A stretch of DNA of 24,495 nucleotides from a virus. The stretch covers positions 1 to 24,495 of the IMG/VR virus record IMGVR_UViG_3300028883_000136, one strand, 5' to 3'. The notes under the pieces were generated by a model. That model did not search any database. It was given only the letters and a program-made list of their open reading frames with translations, and was not told the origin of the DNA. A program made the position numbers and the translations under genes. Shown here in pieces: positions 5,948-17,632 of this stretch (position 1 is its first letter; each line of letters begins with the position of its first letter).

Positions 5948-6144
5948 TCCTCACCATCCTCAAACAAGTCACTAGGTGTAAGTGTAAGGGCGGTACATAA
6001 GGCATCAATTGTTTCTAATCTGATTTGTCTTGGATCATGGCACAATACGGTTATTGCATTTCTGGACATGCCGCACATAACGGCAAAATCCTTTTGGGTA
6101 ATCCCCCTGTCACGAAGTATTTTTCTCAGCTTCAATCGCAGCAT
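5944..6144 (-). CDS. XRE/Cro-C1 type helix-turn-helix regulator
   Basis: A 66-residue single-domain protein. Residues 4-62 form a complete five-helix Cro/C1 fold: LRKILRDRGITQKDFAVMCG (helices 1-2), MSRNAITVLCHD (recognition helix 3) and LETIDALCTALTLTPSDLFE (helices 4-5). There is no C-terminal dimerisation or cleavage domain, so it resembles a Cro-like or small repressor rather than a LexA-type CI. It is the first gene of the leftward operon, 36 bases from its own -10 element. It faces a divergent promoter, and CAAG/CTTG repeats overlap both -35 boxes. Autoregulation and a genetic-switch role are inferred from this arrangement. Confidence 0.8.
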   Translation of the reverse strand: MLRLKLRKILRDRGITQKDFAVMCGMSRNAITVLCHDPRQIRLETIDALCTALTLTPSDLFEDGEE

Positions 6145-6179
6145 AGGTTTAACTCCTTTCTAATATGGTTGGTCTTACA

Positions 6180-6208
6180 AGTGTATCAAATTAAATTACA
6201 GTCGTCAA
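6180..6208 (-). promoter_or_regulatory. Leftward early promoter
   Basis: On the minus strand, -35 TTGACG (6203-6208), a 17-base spacer and -10 TACACT (6180-6185) stand about 35 bases upstream of the XRE gene start. Both boxes are close to the sigma70 consensus. It probably drives the whole operon from 6144 down to 2601. Confidence 0.7.
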
Positions 6209-6242
6209 GGTGTCAAGGGATTAATATATTTTTTACTTGACA
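6203..6242. promoter_or_regulatory. Candidate operator between divergent promoters
   Basis: GTCAAGG occurs twice in direct orientation (6204-6210 and 6212-6218), and CTTGACA (6236-6242) is an exact inverted partner of TGTCAAG (6211-6217) across an 18-base AT-rich spacer. These elements cover the -35 boxes of both promoters. They are natural binding sites for the adjacent XRE-type protein, though they partly coincide with the -35 consensus itself. Confidence 0.45.
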
Positions 6243-6264
6243 TGGATTCTATTTCGTTTATAAT
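6237..6264 (+). promoter_or_regulatory. Rightward early promoter (perfect -35 and -10)
   Basis: TTGACA (6237-6242) and TATAAT (6259-6264) are separated by 16 bases, an exact match to both sigma70 hexamers. The predicted transcription start near 6271 gives a leader of about 210 bases before the gene at 6483. Confidence 0.85.
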
Positions 6265-6303
6265 TGGGATACAATCATTTATAAATTAGGAGTCATTTAT
6301 TTG

Positions 6304-6378
6304 ATGGGTCTAAAACACAAGCCAATGACAATTGTATTCACTAATTATAAGAAGGGAGTGGCGACTCCTGGTTATTGA
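6304..6378 (+). CDS. Possible 24-residue leader peptide
   Basis: An ATG at 6304 (or an in-frame TTG at 6301) lies 8-11 bases after AGGAG at 6288-6292 and opens a 24-codon frame (MGLKHKPMTIVFTNYKKGVA, then TPGY). It ends at 6376-6378, just before the 3' arm of a long stem. The good Shine-Dalgarno site and its position inside a structured leader suggest a regulatory leader peptide or a tiny basic protein. No known peptide recognised. Confidence 0.4.
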   Translation: MGLKHKPMTIVFTNYKKGVATPGY

Positions 6379-6455
6379 TCTAGTCATTGGCTGCTGTTTG
6401 GGGCCAGGAATAAAGCCAATCCCCTACCTGTACCTGCGCTAAAACCTGGCCCCAA
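6320..6455 (+). ncRNA. Structured leader RNA with alternative pairings
   Basis: Two perfect stems lie in the leader: AGCCAATGAC (6320-6329) with GTCATTGGCT (6383-6392), enclosing a small GGAGT/ACTCC hairpin (6355-6368); and TTGGGGCCAGG (6398-6408) with CCTGGCCCCAA (6445-6455). The loop of the second stem holds another AGCCAAT (6414-6420) that could instead pair with ATTGGCT (6386-6392). No T-tract follows, so it is not a simple terminator. It may be a cis-regulatory switch for the downstream genes or a processed RNA. It matches no riboswitch class I know. Confidence 0.5.
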
Positions 6456-6482
6456 CTAAACCACTAGAGAGAGGATAAACCT

Positions 6483-6821
6483 ATGAAAACTATATTTGAG
6501 GGTGACCAATTAAGAATTGATGTTCTTAATGGTTATGTATTTATGAGCCATTTGGGTGCTATTGGAACGGGCGTATCAACGCCAGAAATGCGAAGGGCTT
6601 GCATAGCGTTCTTAGAATATAGCGAAACAGAAGGGCTGCTTCCATGCCCCGTATGTGGAGGAAAAGAATTACAATATAGTATTTCTTTAGACGATGATGG
6701 CGATACATACCATGGTGTTATTTGCCTAAAGTGTGGCATTACAGGGCCACAAATGTGTGTTAAACATAGTGCTATGCGAGCATGGAACTTATTACCCAGG
6801 AACCAGGAGGTTAACTTATGA
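6483..6821 (+). CDS. Lar-like zinc-ribbon protein
   Basis: A 112-residue protein with ribosome binding site AGAGAGG. The C-terminal half contains LLPCPVCGGKEL (C55, C58), then ICLKCGITGP (C81, C84) and ending AMRAWNLLPRN. This is the arrangement of the Lar/restriction-alleviation family, a zinc ribbon with a closing A-x-x-AWN motif common in phage early regions. In lambdoid prophages Lar counters type I restriction; most homologues are uncharacterised. The N-terminal ~50 residues are an extra domain of unknown role. It overlaps the RecT-like gene by ATGA, so the two are co-translated. Confidence 0.7.
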   Translation: MKTIFEGDQLRIDVLNGYVFMSHLGAIGTGVSTPEMRRACIAFLEYSETEGLLPCPVCGGKELQYSISLDDDGDTYHGVICLKCGITGPQMCVKHSAMRAWNLLPRNQEVNL

Positions 6822-7885
6822 CAGAAAGAAACGTACAACTAGCTAAAAGAAATCAAGGGGATATGGTTTGGGATGCCATAAAGAACGATAAAGAAACAGT
6901 GATAAACCGGCTGCGTGCCATGATTGTAAACGGTAAGAAGCTGAACGATCAAGAGGTTTTTGCGCTTACAACCTACTCCATGGCTAACGATCTCAACCCG
7001 TTCAATGGTGAAGCCTTTTTTATCCCCGGCGGTGGACCCGCCCCTGGGATCCAGGGTTTCAGGAAGAAATCAAAGATGGCATTAGAGATTGAAGCCAGGC
7101 AGCATAGTGTCAGGGCACCGTTTTTTACAGAAGAATACACCCTGCTAGACGATCCTGCAGAAGCCGGCCATGAGCCAGACAAAGGGGACATTGCTTATCG
7201 CTGCACCATTACTGATAACGTGAGTGGGACTGGTCATGCCGGAGTTTTATCAGATGCCATGGCTAAGATGGTAGCAGCGGGATTGACAGCAGATGAAGCC
7301 TACCATGCCGCCGAGAAGATCGCCGGCCCAAGACCTACCTGGACTGGCATCGGTGTTGTCAAAGCCAGTGAAAACTTTGGCAGCAAGGAATACTTTAACA
7401 GGCATGAACGAGCCATGAAGCGGGCAGCAAAACTGGCAATGAAGAAACGCTGGCCCTCTCTTGATCTACCATCCTATGCGCTTGAAATGGATGAGCCAGT
7501 GGTCAAAATAGAAACGGTTGAGGAAGAACGGCCCAAGGGAGAAAGGCCCCGACTATCGACTGATCAAATCCTAGATGAGTTAGGTTACTCAAAGAAAGAT
7601 GTCAATGTCATTGCGGTTGATGCTGAATTTACAGAGGTGGAGGATGAGCCAGAGGATGAGCCAGAGGATGAGCCGGACCAAGAAACAAATTATCCAGGAA
7701 GCCAGGCAGAGTATTATTCCTGGTGTGCACAAGGTTTAATACCTTTTGTTGGTGTAAAAGACGCACAGCAGGCTCTAAAGGATGCTAAAGGCGAAATAGA
7801 TATTGCTTTTGAAACCATCAAGCAGCTATCCAAGGAACGACAGGAACATAACGAAAAACTAGAACAGAAGGACACATTATTTTAG
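6818..7885 (+). CDS. RecT-like single-strand annealing recombinase
   Basis: A 355-residue protein. The block FALTTYSMANDLNPFNGEAF (residues 48-67), then FIPGGGPAPGIQGFRKKSKM, is the typical RecT/Red-beta family core ('GL(N/D)PF..E.y.I.....G.....dG.rk'). Later WTGIGVVKASENFGSKEYFN and the basic KRAAKLAMKKRWP fit DNA binding. Such proteins coat and anneal single-stranded DNA in phage recombination and replication. Residues ~270-288 form an acidic Glu-Asp-Glu-Pro repeat (12-base DNA repeat), and a separate C-terminal ~75-residue domain (YPGSQAEYYSWCAQGLIPFV...) follows, possibly a partner-binding module. No RecE-type or lambda-type exonuclease gene is visible beside it. Confidence 0.75.
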   Translation: MTERNVQLAKRNQGDMVWDAIKNDKETVINRLRAMIVNGKKLNDQEVFALTTYSMANDLNPFNGEAFFIPGGGPAPGIQGFRKKSKMALEIEARQHSVRAPFFTEEYTLLDDPAEAGHEPDKGDIAYRCTITDNVSGTGHAGVLSDAMAKMVAAGLTADEAYHAAEKIAGPRPTWTGIGVVKASENFGSKEYFNRHERAMKRAAKLAMKKRWPSLDLPSYALEMDEPVVKIETVEEERPKGERPRLSTDQILDELGYSKKDVNVIAVDAEFTEVEDEPEDEPEDEPDQETNYPGSQAEYYSWCAQGLIPFVGVKDAQQALKDAKGEIDIAFETIKQLSKERQEHNEKLEQKDTLF

Positions 7886-7891
7886 TCATTA

Positions 7892-7958
7892 CCCTGGTAT
7901 GCCCTATTAATAAGTGCTGCCCGACACTTACGGCCAGCCAGGGATGATCATTTTTTTT
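7892..7958 (+). terminator. Possible terminator after the RecT-like gene
   Basis: CCCTGG (7892-7897) can pair with CCAGGG (7938-7943) around an inner TAAGTG/CACTTA hairpin (7911-7930), and a run of eight T follows at 7951-7958. The stem is weak and sits 7 bases from the T run, so termination, if any, would be partial. Confidence 0.3.
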
Positions 7959-7963
7959 CTCCT

Positions 7964-7998
7964 GGTATGCTAGGGTGACTCCTTCACCCTAGCATACC
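7964..7998 (+). repeat. 15-bp perfect inverted repeat in intergenic leader
   Basis: GGTATGCTAGGGTGA (7964-7978) and its exact reverse complement (7984-7998) are separated by 5 bases. The structure ends 26 bases before the start codon at 8025 and has no downstream T run. It may be an mRNA-stabilising or processing hairpin, or a dimeric protein-binding site. GTATGCTAGGGT also occurs at 3128-3139. Confidence 0.8.
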
Positions 7999-8024
7999 TA
8001 CAAGTATAAGAAAGGATAAACCTT

Positions 8025-8396
8025 ATGCCAATGTTACCAAGTGATATGTTAATAAATCGTCTACCGTCTGTTGATGAAATGCCAAAGCCGGTCACTCTTA
8101 CTGATTGGCTTCTATTGGATAAGTTCATCAAACACATAATGAAATTGAAAATAAAGTTAGAAAGATTAGTAGAGGTGATAGGCCCAACTCCACCGCACAT
8201 TATTTACAACGAGAAGGAAGGCATGACCATTGTGATTTTTGCTGATGGTGAGAAGATTATCAGCAAGACTACAAAGGATGATGAGTTTAATCCAGAGGTC
8301 GGTCTTGCCATGTGCCTGGTAAAGCGTATGATGAGCCGGTCTAGTTTCAAGCGACTTGTTAGATCAGGTCATTGGATGGATAACACCGATGAATAG
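8025..8396 (+). CDS. Conserved phage hypothetical protein
   Basis: A 123-residue protein with leader AGAAAGGATAAACC. The second half (IIYNEKEGMTIVIFADGEKI, then SKTTKDDEFNPEVGLAMCLV and KRMMSRSSFKRLV) follows a pattern familiar from many phages of Gram-positive bacteria: a two-strand '(I/V)F.DG.K..(V/S)K...D.F(N/D)PE.GLAM...(K)K' motif ending in a short helix. The function of that family is unknown. The N-terminal half is helical and basic. It overlaps the next gene by 8 bases. Confidence 0.6.
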   Translation: MPMLPSDMLINRLPSVDEMPKPVTLTDWLLLDKFIKHIMKLKIKLERLVEVIGPTPPHIIYNEKEGMTIVIFADGEKIISKTTKDDEFNPEVGLAMCLVKRMMSRSSFKRLVRSGHWMDNTDE

Positions 8397-8896: not shown

Positions 8897-8930
8897 AAAC
8901 CCCATCCAATCGGATGGGGTTTATTTGTTT
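8897..8930. terminator. Bidirectional intrinsic terminator
   Basis: An 11-bp perfect stem AAACCCCATCC / GGATGGGGTTT (8897-8907 and 8912-8922) with a 4-base loop is followed by ATTTGTTT on the + strand and by TTGTTA after the stem's T run on the - strand. It separates the convergent operons ending at 8876 and 8942 and should stop both. Confidence 0.9.
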
Positions 8931-13910: not shown

Positions 13911-14512
13911 GGGTGACTTTCTCCCCTGTATTTTAGACCCTGGTACCAAGGGCTGAGTTACCAGAGGATCGCTGAAGGTGATATCAGCTTATAACCTGGG
14001 AGGATTGTAACGCATGTGAAAAGCAGGATCCGCGCAACCCTGAAAATTATTTACATGAGGATAGCACCAAGGCGATGGGATCCGGTTTCATTTAATGCAG
14101 CATCACAAAGACAATGCCCCAGGTTGGACCGGTTGCGCACTTCTCCAGGTAAACACGCAGCCATTGGAATAGTGTTTGAAAACATGTATTCTCATAAACT
14201 ATTTTTTCACCATCCGCAGCACCGGCGGCCATGATCCGCAGGCATCCGCACCATGGGAGGGGCAACCCTTCACCATCCGCAGCCATGCGCACCCACCCGC
14301 AGCATACCGGCGCACCGGGGGTGTTGGGGGATGGTTGTTTTGGTTTGTGCTCGGCGTCTTGGTTCCATCCAGCTCGCAATTTTTTAACCCTGAAAAATAC
14401 CAACATGTAAGTAAATCTTACAAGTTCAAATTTATTTCACACATAGAACATAATAACCCTATCGGTTATTTTAATGATTATTAAAAATAAATAATGTCTA
14501 TAAATATATTTT
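13911..14512. other. Non-coding control region, first part, with GC-rich repeat block
   Basis: No convincing gene is seen here; the frames present lack ribosome binding sites and family resemblance. A GC-rich block at about 14200-14340 carries ATCCGCA at 14212, 14234, 14244 and 14275, and a 15-base direct repeat TTCACCATCCGCAGC (14206-14220 and 14269-14283). AACCCTGAAAA occurs at 14036 and 14386. A palindrome-like GGTACC centre lies near 13943. Small hairpins include TGTAAG/CTTACA (14406-14422) and AATAACC/GGTTATT (14452-14470). Bases 14470-14512 are very AT-rich. Confidence 0.6.
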
Positions 14513-14574
14513 GTTACTATTTTGTTACCATTAGTAACATTTCTCTGTGTTACCATTAGTAACAGATTAGTAAC
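14513..14574. repeat. Iteron-like palindrome cluster 1 (symmetric)
   Basis: Two identical full palindromes GTTACCATTAGTAAC (14524-14538 and 14549-14563) are flanked by half-sites GTTAC (14513-14517) and GTAAC (14570-14574), each 11 bases from its neighbour. The arrangement is exactly symmetric about 14543.5. This is a binding array for a dimeric DNA-binding protein. Confidence 0.9.
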
Positions 14575-14643
14575 AGAATGTCTTGAAAAAAGATATCTAT
14601 ATTCTTATTCTTATTCTTTTTCTATATCTATATCTTTATCTGT
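14575..14643. other. AT-rich pyrimidine tract between palindrome clusters
   Basis: The 69 bases between the two clusters are almost entirely A/T/C on the + strand with TATTCT and CTATAT repeats. Such a tract next to iterons is typical of a DNA unwinding element, but it could also be a flexible spacer between operators. Confidence 0.5.
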
Positions 14644-14715
14644 GTTACCAGAAGTAACGCTTAACCGTTACCATTGGTAACGCACTACCGTTACTATTAG
14701 TAACAGATTGGTAAC
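14644..14715. repeat. Iteron-like palindrome cluster 2 (23-base period)
   Basis: Three full palindromes, GTTACCAGAAGTAAC (14644-14658), GTTACCATTGGTAAC (14667-14681) and GTTACTATTAGTAAC (14690-14704), start 23 bases apart. A half-site GTAAC follows at 14711-14715. As in cluster 1, the last full site is followed by AGATT(A/G)GTAAC. Confidence 0.9.
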
Positions 14716-14729
14716 AAGTAATTTATTGC

Positions 14730-14759
14730 TTGCAAGGAAGTTGATAATTATGATACAAT
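14730..14759 (+). promoter_or_regulatory. Candidate late promoter
   Basis: TTGCAA (14730-14735) and TACAAT (14754-14759) with an 18-base spacer form a plausible sigma70 promoter about 105 bases before the holin gene. An alternative pairing of TTGCTT (14727) with TATGAT (14750) is also possible. It begins 14 bases after the last GTAAC half-site, so the palindromes could control it. Confidence 0.5.
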
Positions 14760-14809
14760 TCAATTGGTTACGATTGACTCCCGTAGCTAAGGTTTATCTC
14801 TCAACGAGG

Positions 14810-14837
14810 GTTGGGGGGGAGTGGTTGCCCCCCCAAC
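14810..14837 (+). repeat. G7/C7 hairpin in late leader
   Basis: GTTGGGGGGG (14810-14819) pairs perfectly with CCCCCCCAAC (14828-14837) around an 8-base loop, 28 bases before the holin start codon. No T run follows. It may stabilise or regulate the late transcript. Confidence 0.8.
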
Positions 14838-15554: not shown

Positions 15555-16012
15555 TGGGATCATCACTTGTTGATAAAGACGGTAATTTAATTTGGACTCA
15601 TCAAATGGGTAAGGCGGCAGTTTTGTTGGCGCAAGGCTATACCAATGCTGAGGTTGCCAGGGATGAAGAAGTAGACGTAAACCGTTCAACGATTACGCGA
15701 TGGAGGCGGTATGAAGAATTTGAAGCAGAGGTAGACCGGCTCTCTCTCATGTATGGGTTGGCATCCAAACCGGCTAGAATGAGATTGATCCAGCAGGCAG
15801 CCAGGCAGTTTATAGACAATGAGGGAAAAATCGATGTGTCTGGTTTTAATCTTTTGGACTTGCTGAAAGAGGCTCGTATGCAGATGGAAGGAGTACAGAT
15901 TGGCATCCTCAATGAACTTGAAGCCTTCGATGCAAAGGCCGGACCTGTGGCCGGAAGCGGATCAGATTCAAGTAAGCAATTACCTGAAACAATCGAAGCT
16001 GAAACCGATTGA
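15554..16012 (+). CDS. Terminase small subunit-like DNA-binding protein
   Basis: A 152-residue protein. I chose ATG 15554, which overlaps the upstream stop by one base. Residues 18-56 (AAVLLAQGYTNAEVARDEEV, then VNRSTITRWRRYEEFEAEVD) form a helix-turn-helix like those of phage small terminase subunits, followed by a long helical region and a disordered Ser/Glu tail. Small terminases bind packaging sites and load the large subunit. Location immediately before the terminase ATPase gene, which overlaps it by 113 bases, supports this. Confidence 0.65.
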   Translation: MGSSLVDKDGNLIWTHQMGKAAVLLAQGYTNAEVARDEEVDVNRSTITRWRRYEEFEAEVDRLSLMYGLASKPARMRLIQQAARQFIDNEGKIDVSGFNLLDLLKEARMQMEGVQIGILNELEAFDAKAGPVAGSGSDSSKQLPETIEAETD

Positions 16013-16619
16013 TATTTGGCAGCCACAACCCAAACAAGAAGTATTACTGGAATTATGCGGATTGCATGAAGCCCTAACTGGTGGTCCCGTTCATCCGGCA
16101 ATCTCTGGATTGATCGGATACGGCGGCGCAGCAGGTGGGGGTAAAACAGAGGGGATGATAGGGGTGGGGTTGATCGCACTCCTACAAGTACCAGGCGTAA
16201 AGATAGGATATTTCAGGCGCAAGTTTACAGAACTAGAGGGGTCGGATGGGCCAATTGAAAGATCGCAAATACTTTACCCGCAGATCGGCGGGGTTTATAA
16301 TAAATCATCCCATGTTTGGCGTGTGGGCGAAAAGGATAATGACGACTGGAACGAAGGTGTGGCCGGCGCACTCCGATTTTGTCACTGCCAATATGAAAGC
16401 AGCGTTATAGATTATCAATCTAGCGCATTTGACATTTTATTATTTGATGAAGCAACACATTTTAGCTGGAAACAAGTAAGTTATTTATTGACCCGTAACC
16501 GGAAAGCACGACATTCGATGCTTCCAAGGCCCTTTGCTATCTTTTGTTCTAACCCTGGCGGCGTGGGGCACATGTGGTATAAGAAAATTTTTGACATAAA
16601 GGATCGCGCAGATGAGTGA
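15900..16619 (+). CDS. Terminase large subunit, ATPase part (separate polypeptide)
   Basis: A 239-residue protein carrying only the packaging ATPase domain: Walker A GGAAGGGKT (residues 75-83), Walker B ILLFDEATHF (179-188, catalytic Glu 184) and coupling motif FCSNPGG (215-221), ending shortly after GHMWYKKIFDIKD. In normal terminases the RNase H-like nuclease follows in the same chain; here a stop codon ends the protein. The TTG start at 15900 has AAGGAG six bases upstream, so a 113-base overlap with the small terminase gene is likely; in-frame ATGs at 15912 and 15930 are alternatives. It powers DNA translocation into the capsid, presumably in complex with the separately encoded nuclease. 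Confidence 0.85.
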   Translation: MASSMNLKPSMQRPDLWPEADQIQVSNYLKQSKLKPIDIWQPQPKQEVLLELCGLHEALTGGPVHPAISGLIGYGGAAGGGKTEGMIGVGLIALLQVPGVKIGYFRRKFTELEGSDGPIERSQILYPQIGGVYNKSSHVWRVGEKDNDDWNEGVAGALRFCHCQYESSVIDYQSSAFDILLFDEATHFSWKQVSYLLTRNRKARHSMLPRPFAIFCSNPGGVGHMWYKKIFDIKDRADE

Positions 16620-16803
16620 AGAAGCAATCTCAATGGTGTTTTATCGTGATTATACGCTTGTTACCCTTGCCGATGGGACCGAAATCAAGCTGCATCCCCA
16701 AATGGATAATGGGGAAAGGCTGACTTTACAAGAATATCAAGACATTTTTTACCCAATCATTCACGATAGCAACAGATTTAATAAATTGGAGGAAAATGAT
16801 TGA
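16612..16803 (+). CDS. 63-residue protein inserted between the two terminase halves
   Basis: A 63-residue protein starting MSEEAISMVFYRDYTLVTLA, then DGTEIKLHPQMDNGERLTLQ and a helical acidic end (NRFNKLEEND). AAGGA lies 8 bases before its ATG. It overlaps both terminase genes by 8 bases with nearly identical junctions, ATGAGTGA at 16612 and ATGATTGA at 16796. It shows no homing-endonuclease or intein motif and no resemblance to terminase linker sequence. A small beta-rich domain ('YRDYTLVTLADGTEIKL') is suggested. It may bridge the ATPase and nuclease polypeptides; that is inference. No family recognised. Confidence 0.6.
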   Translation: MSEEAISMVFYRDYTLVTLADGTEIKLHPQMDNGERLTLQEYQDIFYPIIHDSNRFNKLEEND

Positions 16804-17632
16804 CCTTCCAGAAGTTAAAACGGTAGAAAATCCGCATCATAGGCAGGTAGAAACAGTCTTTTTGCCTGCTTTTTTGGATGATAACCCGATTTTAACTGAA
16901 TCTGATCCAGGATATGCCGATAGATTGTTCCAACAAGGCGATAGACTGGCCAGAGCCTTGTTAGAGGGTGACTGGTCAGTGTTTGCGGGTCAGTTTTTCG
17001 ATGAATTTGCTTATCATAGGCACACATGCGACTATTTTGAGATACCTAGATCATGGTCAAGGTTTAGAGGGTATGACTGGGGCTTTGCTGCCCCCGCTTG
17101 TATGCTTTGGTTTGCTAAAGAGCCGGCAACGGGTCGCTTATTCTTGTATAAGGAGTGGTATCAGGCCGGTTTTACCGATCCGCACCAGGCAGAAGCCATA
17201 AATGACATGACGGATGAGCACGAAAGGTTTACTTTCACCTATGCAGATCCATCTTGTTGGGCTAAAAGGACAACCGAGGTGATTGCCAAGTCTACATTCG
17301 ATGTTTTTATGACGCACCAGATATATTTGACCAAGGCAGACAATAATCAGATGCGTAAGATCAAGCGATTGCGGCAAGCCCTGGGTGATATCCATGATGG
17401 TGAGCCTGGAATTAAAATATTTAGAAGTTGTGTCAATACCATTGGTGAAATTGAGGGTTTGATGAGTAATCCTGATCATCCCGAAAGATGGTTGAATGGA
17501 CAGTTAGATCATGCCATAGATGCCTTTGGGTATGCCCTAAGCAATTATAAACCCCCAACAGTAACGGGGCTAAAGGAAAAAAGAAATCGTGGTATAAGTA
17601 AAAAGAACAAGTATGCAGTGAAGGGATTGTAA
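16796..17632 (+). CDS. Terminase large subunit, nuclease part (separate polypeptide)
   Basis: A 278-residue protein with a strong GGAGG ribosome binding site. It begins with the linker and post-ATPase segment normally joined to the ATPase (ETVFLPAFLDDNPILTESDP; ALLEGDWSVFAGQFFDEF). It then carries an RNase H-fold nuclease: FRGYDWGFAAP (D94), YADPSCW (D151) and LDHAIDAFGYAL (D238, D242), the three acidic positions expected for metal-dependent cleavage of the concatemer. The C-terminus is basic (KEKRNRGISKKNKYAVKG). Together with the gene at 15900 it makes a complete TerL, split between ATPase and nuclease. Confidence 0.85.
   Translation: MIDLPEVKTVENPHHRQVETVFLPAFLDDNPILTESDPGYADRLFQQGDRLARALLEGDWSVFAGQFFDEFAYHRHTCDYFEIPRSWSRFRGYDWGFAAPACMLWFAKEPATGRLFLYKEWYQAGFTDPHQAEAINDMTDEHERFTFTYADPSCWAKRTTEVIAKSTFDVFMTHQIYLTKADNNQMRKIKRLRQALGDIHDGEPGIKIFRSCVNTIGEIEGLMSNPDHPERWLNGQLDHAIDAFGYALSNYKPPTVTGLKEKRNRGISKKNKYAVKGL

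Follow-up and report, generated by a model that had tools for sequence, protein, structure and literature searches.

Among phages, structured early leaders are known to provide elements for antitermination and for the control of translation. The put RNA of phage HK022 consists of two stem-loops spanning about 70 nt (PMC9378689), and in phage T4 a leader pseudoknot lies 67 nt upstream of the start codon of gene 32 (PMC3014915). In the Gram-positive processive antitermination systems LoaP/dfn hairpin, EAR and conAn, an RNA element stands near the start of an operon with internal terminators (PMC12691694, PMC8955417). In amino-acid attenuators, a short frame overlaps one arm of competing hairpins.

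The leader studied here comes from an uncharacterised phage fragment in IMG/VR with terminase and portal genes. This fragment (24.5 kb, the whole stretch of DNA that we analysed, hereafter the window) has no near DNA relative in the phage and plasmid collections. Like putL and putR, the leader has two predicted stem-loops on an early phage transcript, close to a repressor-controlled promoter, but its element covers about 140 nt and thus falls outside the size of put. With LoaP/dfn, EAR and conAn it shares its place close to the beginning of an operon that contains an internal terminator; unlike there, the leader lacks a dfn-type leader terminator and has no Rfam match. A candidate H-type pseudoknot ahead of an early gene recalls T4 gene 32, but here it would require the opening of stem 1, and it is not conserved in the two related loci (L009 and L024) described below. 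As in amino-acid attenuators, a short frame overlaps one arm of possible competing hairpins, although there is no terminator and no run of a single amino acid, and the frame is not conserved. We tentatively read positions 6271 to 6482 as the 5′ leader of an early operon under repressor control, structured but static, and not as a ribosome-controlled two-state switch, a reading to which we give somewhat less than an even chance.

Promoter, leader and early operon

The promoter in front of the leader matches the sigma-70 consensus perfectly, as the initial annotation had stated (Table 1). It looks like the strongest promoter of the phage and would make the leader as its first RNA. A divergent gene for a small HTH protein faces it; the protein is probably the repressor, and the inverted repeat that overlaps the −35 element is its probable operator. 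From the promoter, the transcript would start at about 6271, and as the first gene begins at 6483, the leader should be about 212 nt long.

Table 1. Coordinates of the leader, its promoter region and the neighbouring operon features in the window
Feature	Position	Strand	Details
Cro/C1-type HTH protein, 66 aa	5944-6144	-	Pfam HTH_26, E 4e-16; divergent from leader
Inverted repeat TGTCAAG ... CTTGACA	6211-6242		Overlaps -35; candidate repressor operator
Early promoter, consensus sigma-70	6237-6264	+	TTGACA at 6237, 16-nt spacer, TATAAT to 6264; 12/12
24-codon frame MGLKHKPMTIVFTNYKKGVATPGY	6304-6378	+	ATG 6304 to TGA 6378; AGGAG at 6288-6292
Stem 1	6313-6399	+	10-bp core, AGCCAATGAC (6320-6329) with GTCATTGGCT (6383-6392); outer 5 bp
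Stem 2, perfect 11 bp	6398-6455	+	TTGGGGCCAGG (6398-6408) with CCTGGCCCCAA (6445-6455); 36-nt loop
Second copy of AAGCCAAT, in stem 2 loop	6413-6420	+	Pseudoknot with 6386-6392 possible
First operon gene, Zn-ribbon protein, Lar restriction alleviation-like	6483-6821	+	Pfam PF14354, PHROG 599
RecT-like annealing protein	6818-7885	+	Pfam PF03837, E 1e-4, below cut-off; weak match
Terminator-like hairpin with T8 inside operon	7885-7957	+	-23 kcal/mol stem, then CATTTTTTTT; between RecT-like and next gene

The early operon encodes the Lar-like Zn-ribbon protein, the RecT-like protein and small genes. The Lar-like gene matches its Pfam family with an E value of 1e-5 (below the Pfam cut-off) and its PHROG with an E value of 4e-8. 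The short frame with a good ribosome-binding site that had been described within the leader is present in the sequence. According to the partition function, its AGGAGUC pairs at first with GACUCCU (6363 to 6369; P = 0.85) and loses this pairing once stem 1 has formed (P < 1e-5), so that a timing effect on the short frame is possible in this model.

The intergenic stretch at 7885 to 8001 is itself very strongly structured (z of −8.3 on the minus strand and of −6.7 and −5.8 on the plus strand). In it, the T8 hairpin is followed by a perfect 15-bp hairpin, GGTATGCTAGGGTGA/TCACCCTAGCATACC. The two hairpins both contain CCTGGTATGC, which gives GCATACC two possible partners. The ribosome-binding modules of the Lar-like gene (AGAGAGGATAAACCT-ATG, 6468 to 6485) and of the gene at 8025 (AGAAAGGATAAACCTT-ATG, 8009 to 8027) are nearly identical.

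The two stems and their chance expectation

Both stems proposed in the initial annotation exist, with every arm exact. Stem 1 extends outward by five further pairs (AAACA/TGTTT, 6313 to 6399) beyond a 2-by-2 internal loop; the last two bases of this extension are also the first two of stem 2, and the stem 1 loop holds a small hairpin (6354 to 6369). In the full leader, stems 1 and 2 are predicted with probabilities of 0.98 and 0.89, respectively. In the growing transcript, stem 1 is predicted to be complete once base 6395 has been made, before 6414 is transcribed. No U-run follows stem 2, in agreement with the claim that a terminator T run is absent, and there is no terminator at this place.

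The observed two-adjacent-stem score was reached in 0 of 4,000 leader shuffles. Perfect inverted repeats of ≥10 bp (gap, 3 to 60) number 10 across the window versus 1.2 expected, and stems 1 and 2 form the only pair of such repeats within 150 nt, an arrangement seen in 0 of 40 shuffled windows. The folding energy is less remarkable (z of −2.6 for 6271 to 6482 and −3.1 for 6305 to 6460), and the minus strand of the leader folds nearly as well as the plus strand. On a coarse fold scan of the window, the regions 7876 to 8025 and 14476 to 14700 were far stronger than the leader. Loose two-stem layouts numbered about 10 in 197 kb, several of them within coding DNA.

Two other sites in the window also contain conspicuous repeats. 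Upstream of the late genes, the region 14500 to 14830 carries repeated, iteron-like palindromes (GTTACCATTAGTAAC) with a strong fold on both strands, and a perfect 13-bp inverted repeat (CAATCTCCCTGCT, 1727 to 1787; z of about −5) lies within a gene for a 294-aa protein (1432 to 2316).

Related loci with a two-stem leader

The two relatives were not chosen for their two-stem layout. A search with the ORF for the N-terminal terminase ATPase gave 12 loci; L009 alone among them combined a repressor homologue with a comparable leader. L024, on a 34-kb contig, was found through the first gene of L009. The HTH repressors of L009 and L024 are 45 to 48% and 42% identical to that of the window, respectively. 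A further candidate, L014, had a weak HTH match (32%) and was not comparable. Between L024 and the window phage, identities reach 57 to 63% for the terminase, 49% for the portal protein and 49% for a RusA-like protein, by which L024 is judged to be a true relative. The window (15900 to 17632), L009 and L022 encode the large terminase subunit in two ORFs, one for the ATPase and one for the nuclease, and an extra 63-aa ORF (16612 to 16803) lies between the terminase ORFs in the window and in the identical contig L002.

The promoter architecture recurs as well. TTGACA and TATACT are conserved in both relatives (11 of 12 positions), and in both the homologous repressor gene faces this promoter; in L009 the two elements are 17 nt apart and a 240-nt leader follows. 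The inverted TGTCAAG/CTTGACA surrounds the divergent promoters of the window, L009 (TGTCAAG-N11-CTTGACA) and L024. In both relatives, a two-stem block differing in sequence from that of the window precedes the first core early gene. The L009 block has CAGCCGG/CCGGCTG and then GGGGCGG/CCGCCCC, a result equalled in 28 of 4,000 shuffles. L009 supports the layout weakly, and the stem that scored best against shuffles differs there from the stem of the minimum-energy fold. The L024 block, CGGCTGGC/GCCAGCCG and then the 11-bp GCCGGGATCGT/ACGATCCCGGC, was equalled in 1 of 4,000 shuffles (z of −5.1) and lies about 840 nt from its promoter, with two extra genes in between.

No leader sequence common to the window and either L009 or L024 was detectable (P = 0.38 to 0.52); in the loop of stem 1, L009 and L024 have a short run in common (P = 0.03). 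As the leaders share no detectable sequence and MAFFT did not bring the stems into register, the kinship of the element is a matter of layout, and the RNAalifold consensus of the three leaders was meaningless because their stems do not align by sequence. No relatives were obtained with Lar, RecT and HTH queries against viral contigs or with RecT and L009 first-gene queries against genome contigs, and an alignment of the L009 first gene used as the query gave no additional members. The exact stem 1 pattern had two matches, both to the same coding stretch in other phages. By its layout, the structured leader looks like a real feature of the lineage; the two-stem layout appears weakly conserved across the three loci, which falls short of showing that the RNAs themselves are homologous.

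Alternative readings of the leader

The initial annotation had proposed that the leader switches between two folds: ATTGGCT (6386 to 6392) would pair either within stem 1 or with AGCCAAT at 6414 to 6420, the latter pairing competing with both stems, and a ribosome translating the 24-codon frame would free the 3′ arm of stem 1 for it. The sequence elements are as described. The repeat is in fact 8 nt long (AAGCCAAT at 6319 and 6413), the complementarity exists, the frame has its AGGAG, and a 7-nt complement arises in the loop in only 0.7% of loop shuffles. The alternative helix does exclude stem 1, but it crosses stem 2 instead of competing with it (6386 < 6398 < 6420 < 6455), so that the two would coexist as an H-type pseudoknot. 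As a nested helix, the alternative fold has −38.3 kcal/mol versus −58.1 kcal/mol, a cost of about 20 kcal/mol. Within the nested folds that the partition function covers, the helix stays at a probability of about 1e-8 or below for ribosome-free transcripts of any length and does not exceed 0.006 in any blocked state with the ribosome footprint masked, which argues against ribosome position setting the fold. Neither is an output on translation visible, as the Lar ribosome-binding site is paired to neither stem in the predicted folds and no terminator is present. In the relatives the two stems recur, but the alternative pairing does not: the stem 2 loop of L009 has no complement of at least 4 nt to the 3′ arm of stem 1, and that of L024 has one of 4 nt. 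The short frame with AGGAG is kept in neither: the frame of L009 has 23 codons and lacks a good ribosome-binding site, and L024 has no frame at this place. The proposed switch would matter more if true, but the evidence is against it; these models do not support it, and we regard it as very improbable.

The position of the leader and the T8 hairpin inside the operon make a role like that of put attractive: nascent stem-loops would bind the elongating RNA polymerase and carry it through 7885 to 7957, up to the terminator at 8897 to 8922. The put RNAs let polymerase read through terminators downstream by way of its beta′ zinc-binding domain. Two stem-loops just past an early promoter are found in HK022 put (PMC9378689), and the distance to the promoter can vary, being about 840 nt for the L024 block and about 270 nt for putR. 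The stems here are longer, however, spanning 6313 to 6455, and no Rfam family matched the window at the gathering score; for 6140 to 6500, even a threshold of E = 5 gave two chance matches only (E values of 2.8 and 4.5). Moreover, no comparable terminator was found in the L024 operon or over the initial 2.2 kb of that of L009, and the genes past 7957 may possess their own promoter. We consider such antitermination rather unlikely. RecT-like proteins bind single strands. It is also conceivable, if still more doubtful, that translation is repressed much as in T4 gene 32, through binding of the Lar-like protein, the RecT-like protein or a protein of the host to the stems, possibly to the pseudoknot that stem 2 would make with 6414 to 6420. 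The topology of the alternative helix and the single-strand binding of RecT-like proteins would suit this, as would the T4 precedent (PMC3014915), but the second copy of the arm is missing from L009 and L024 and making the pseudoknot costs stem 1. Finally, the stems may act in DNA, as a replication or recombination site, or be functionless leftovers. The richness of the window in long inverted repeats, some within genes, and the about equal folding of the two strands are consistent with this, whereas the gaps (53 and 36 nt) would be long for a site in DNA, the pair of stems lies right behind the promoter, and two relatives have a similar layout. Here too we think the odds are against it.

A static structured leader is, on the predicted folds, the simplest reading. 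The leader would fold once as transcription passes, with stem 1 beside stem 2, and most likely it would either protect the early mRNA against nucleases in its 5′ region and keep the downstream ribosome-binding site open, or serve as a binding site for a protein of the host or the phage. The leader matches no described RNA family. It could represent a put-like or other protein-binding early RNA whose two-stem architecture was kept in an unstudied lineage while its sequence changed almost completely, an interpretation that we hold to be distinctly improbable. If the layout is functional, this leader would lend itself to a simple reporter test.
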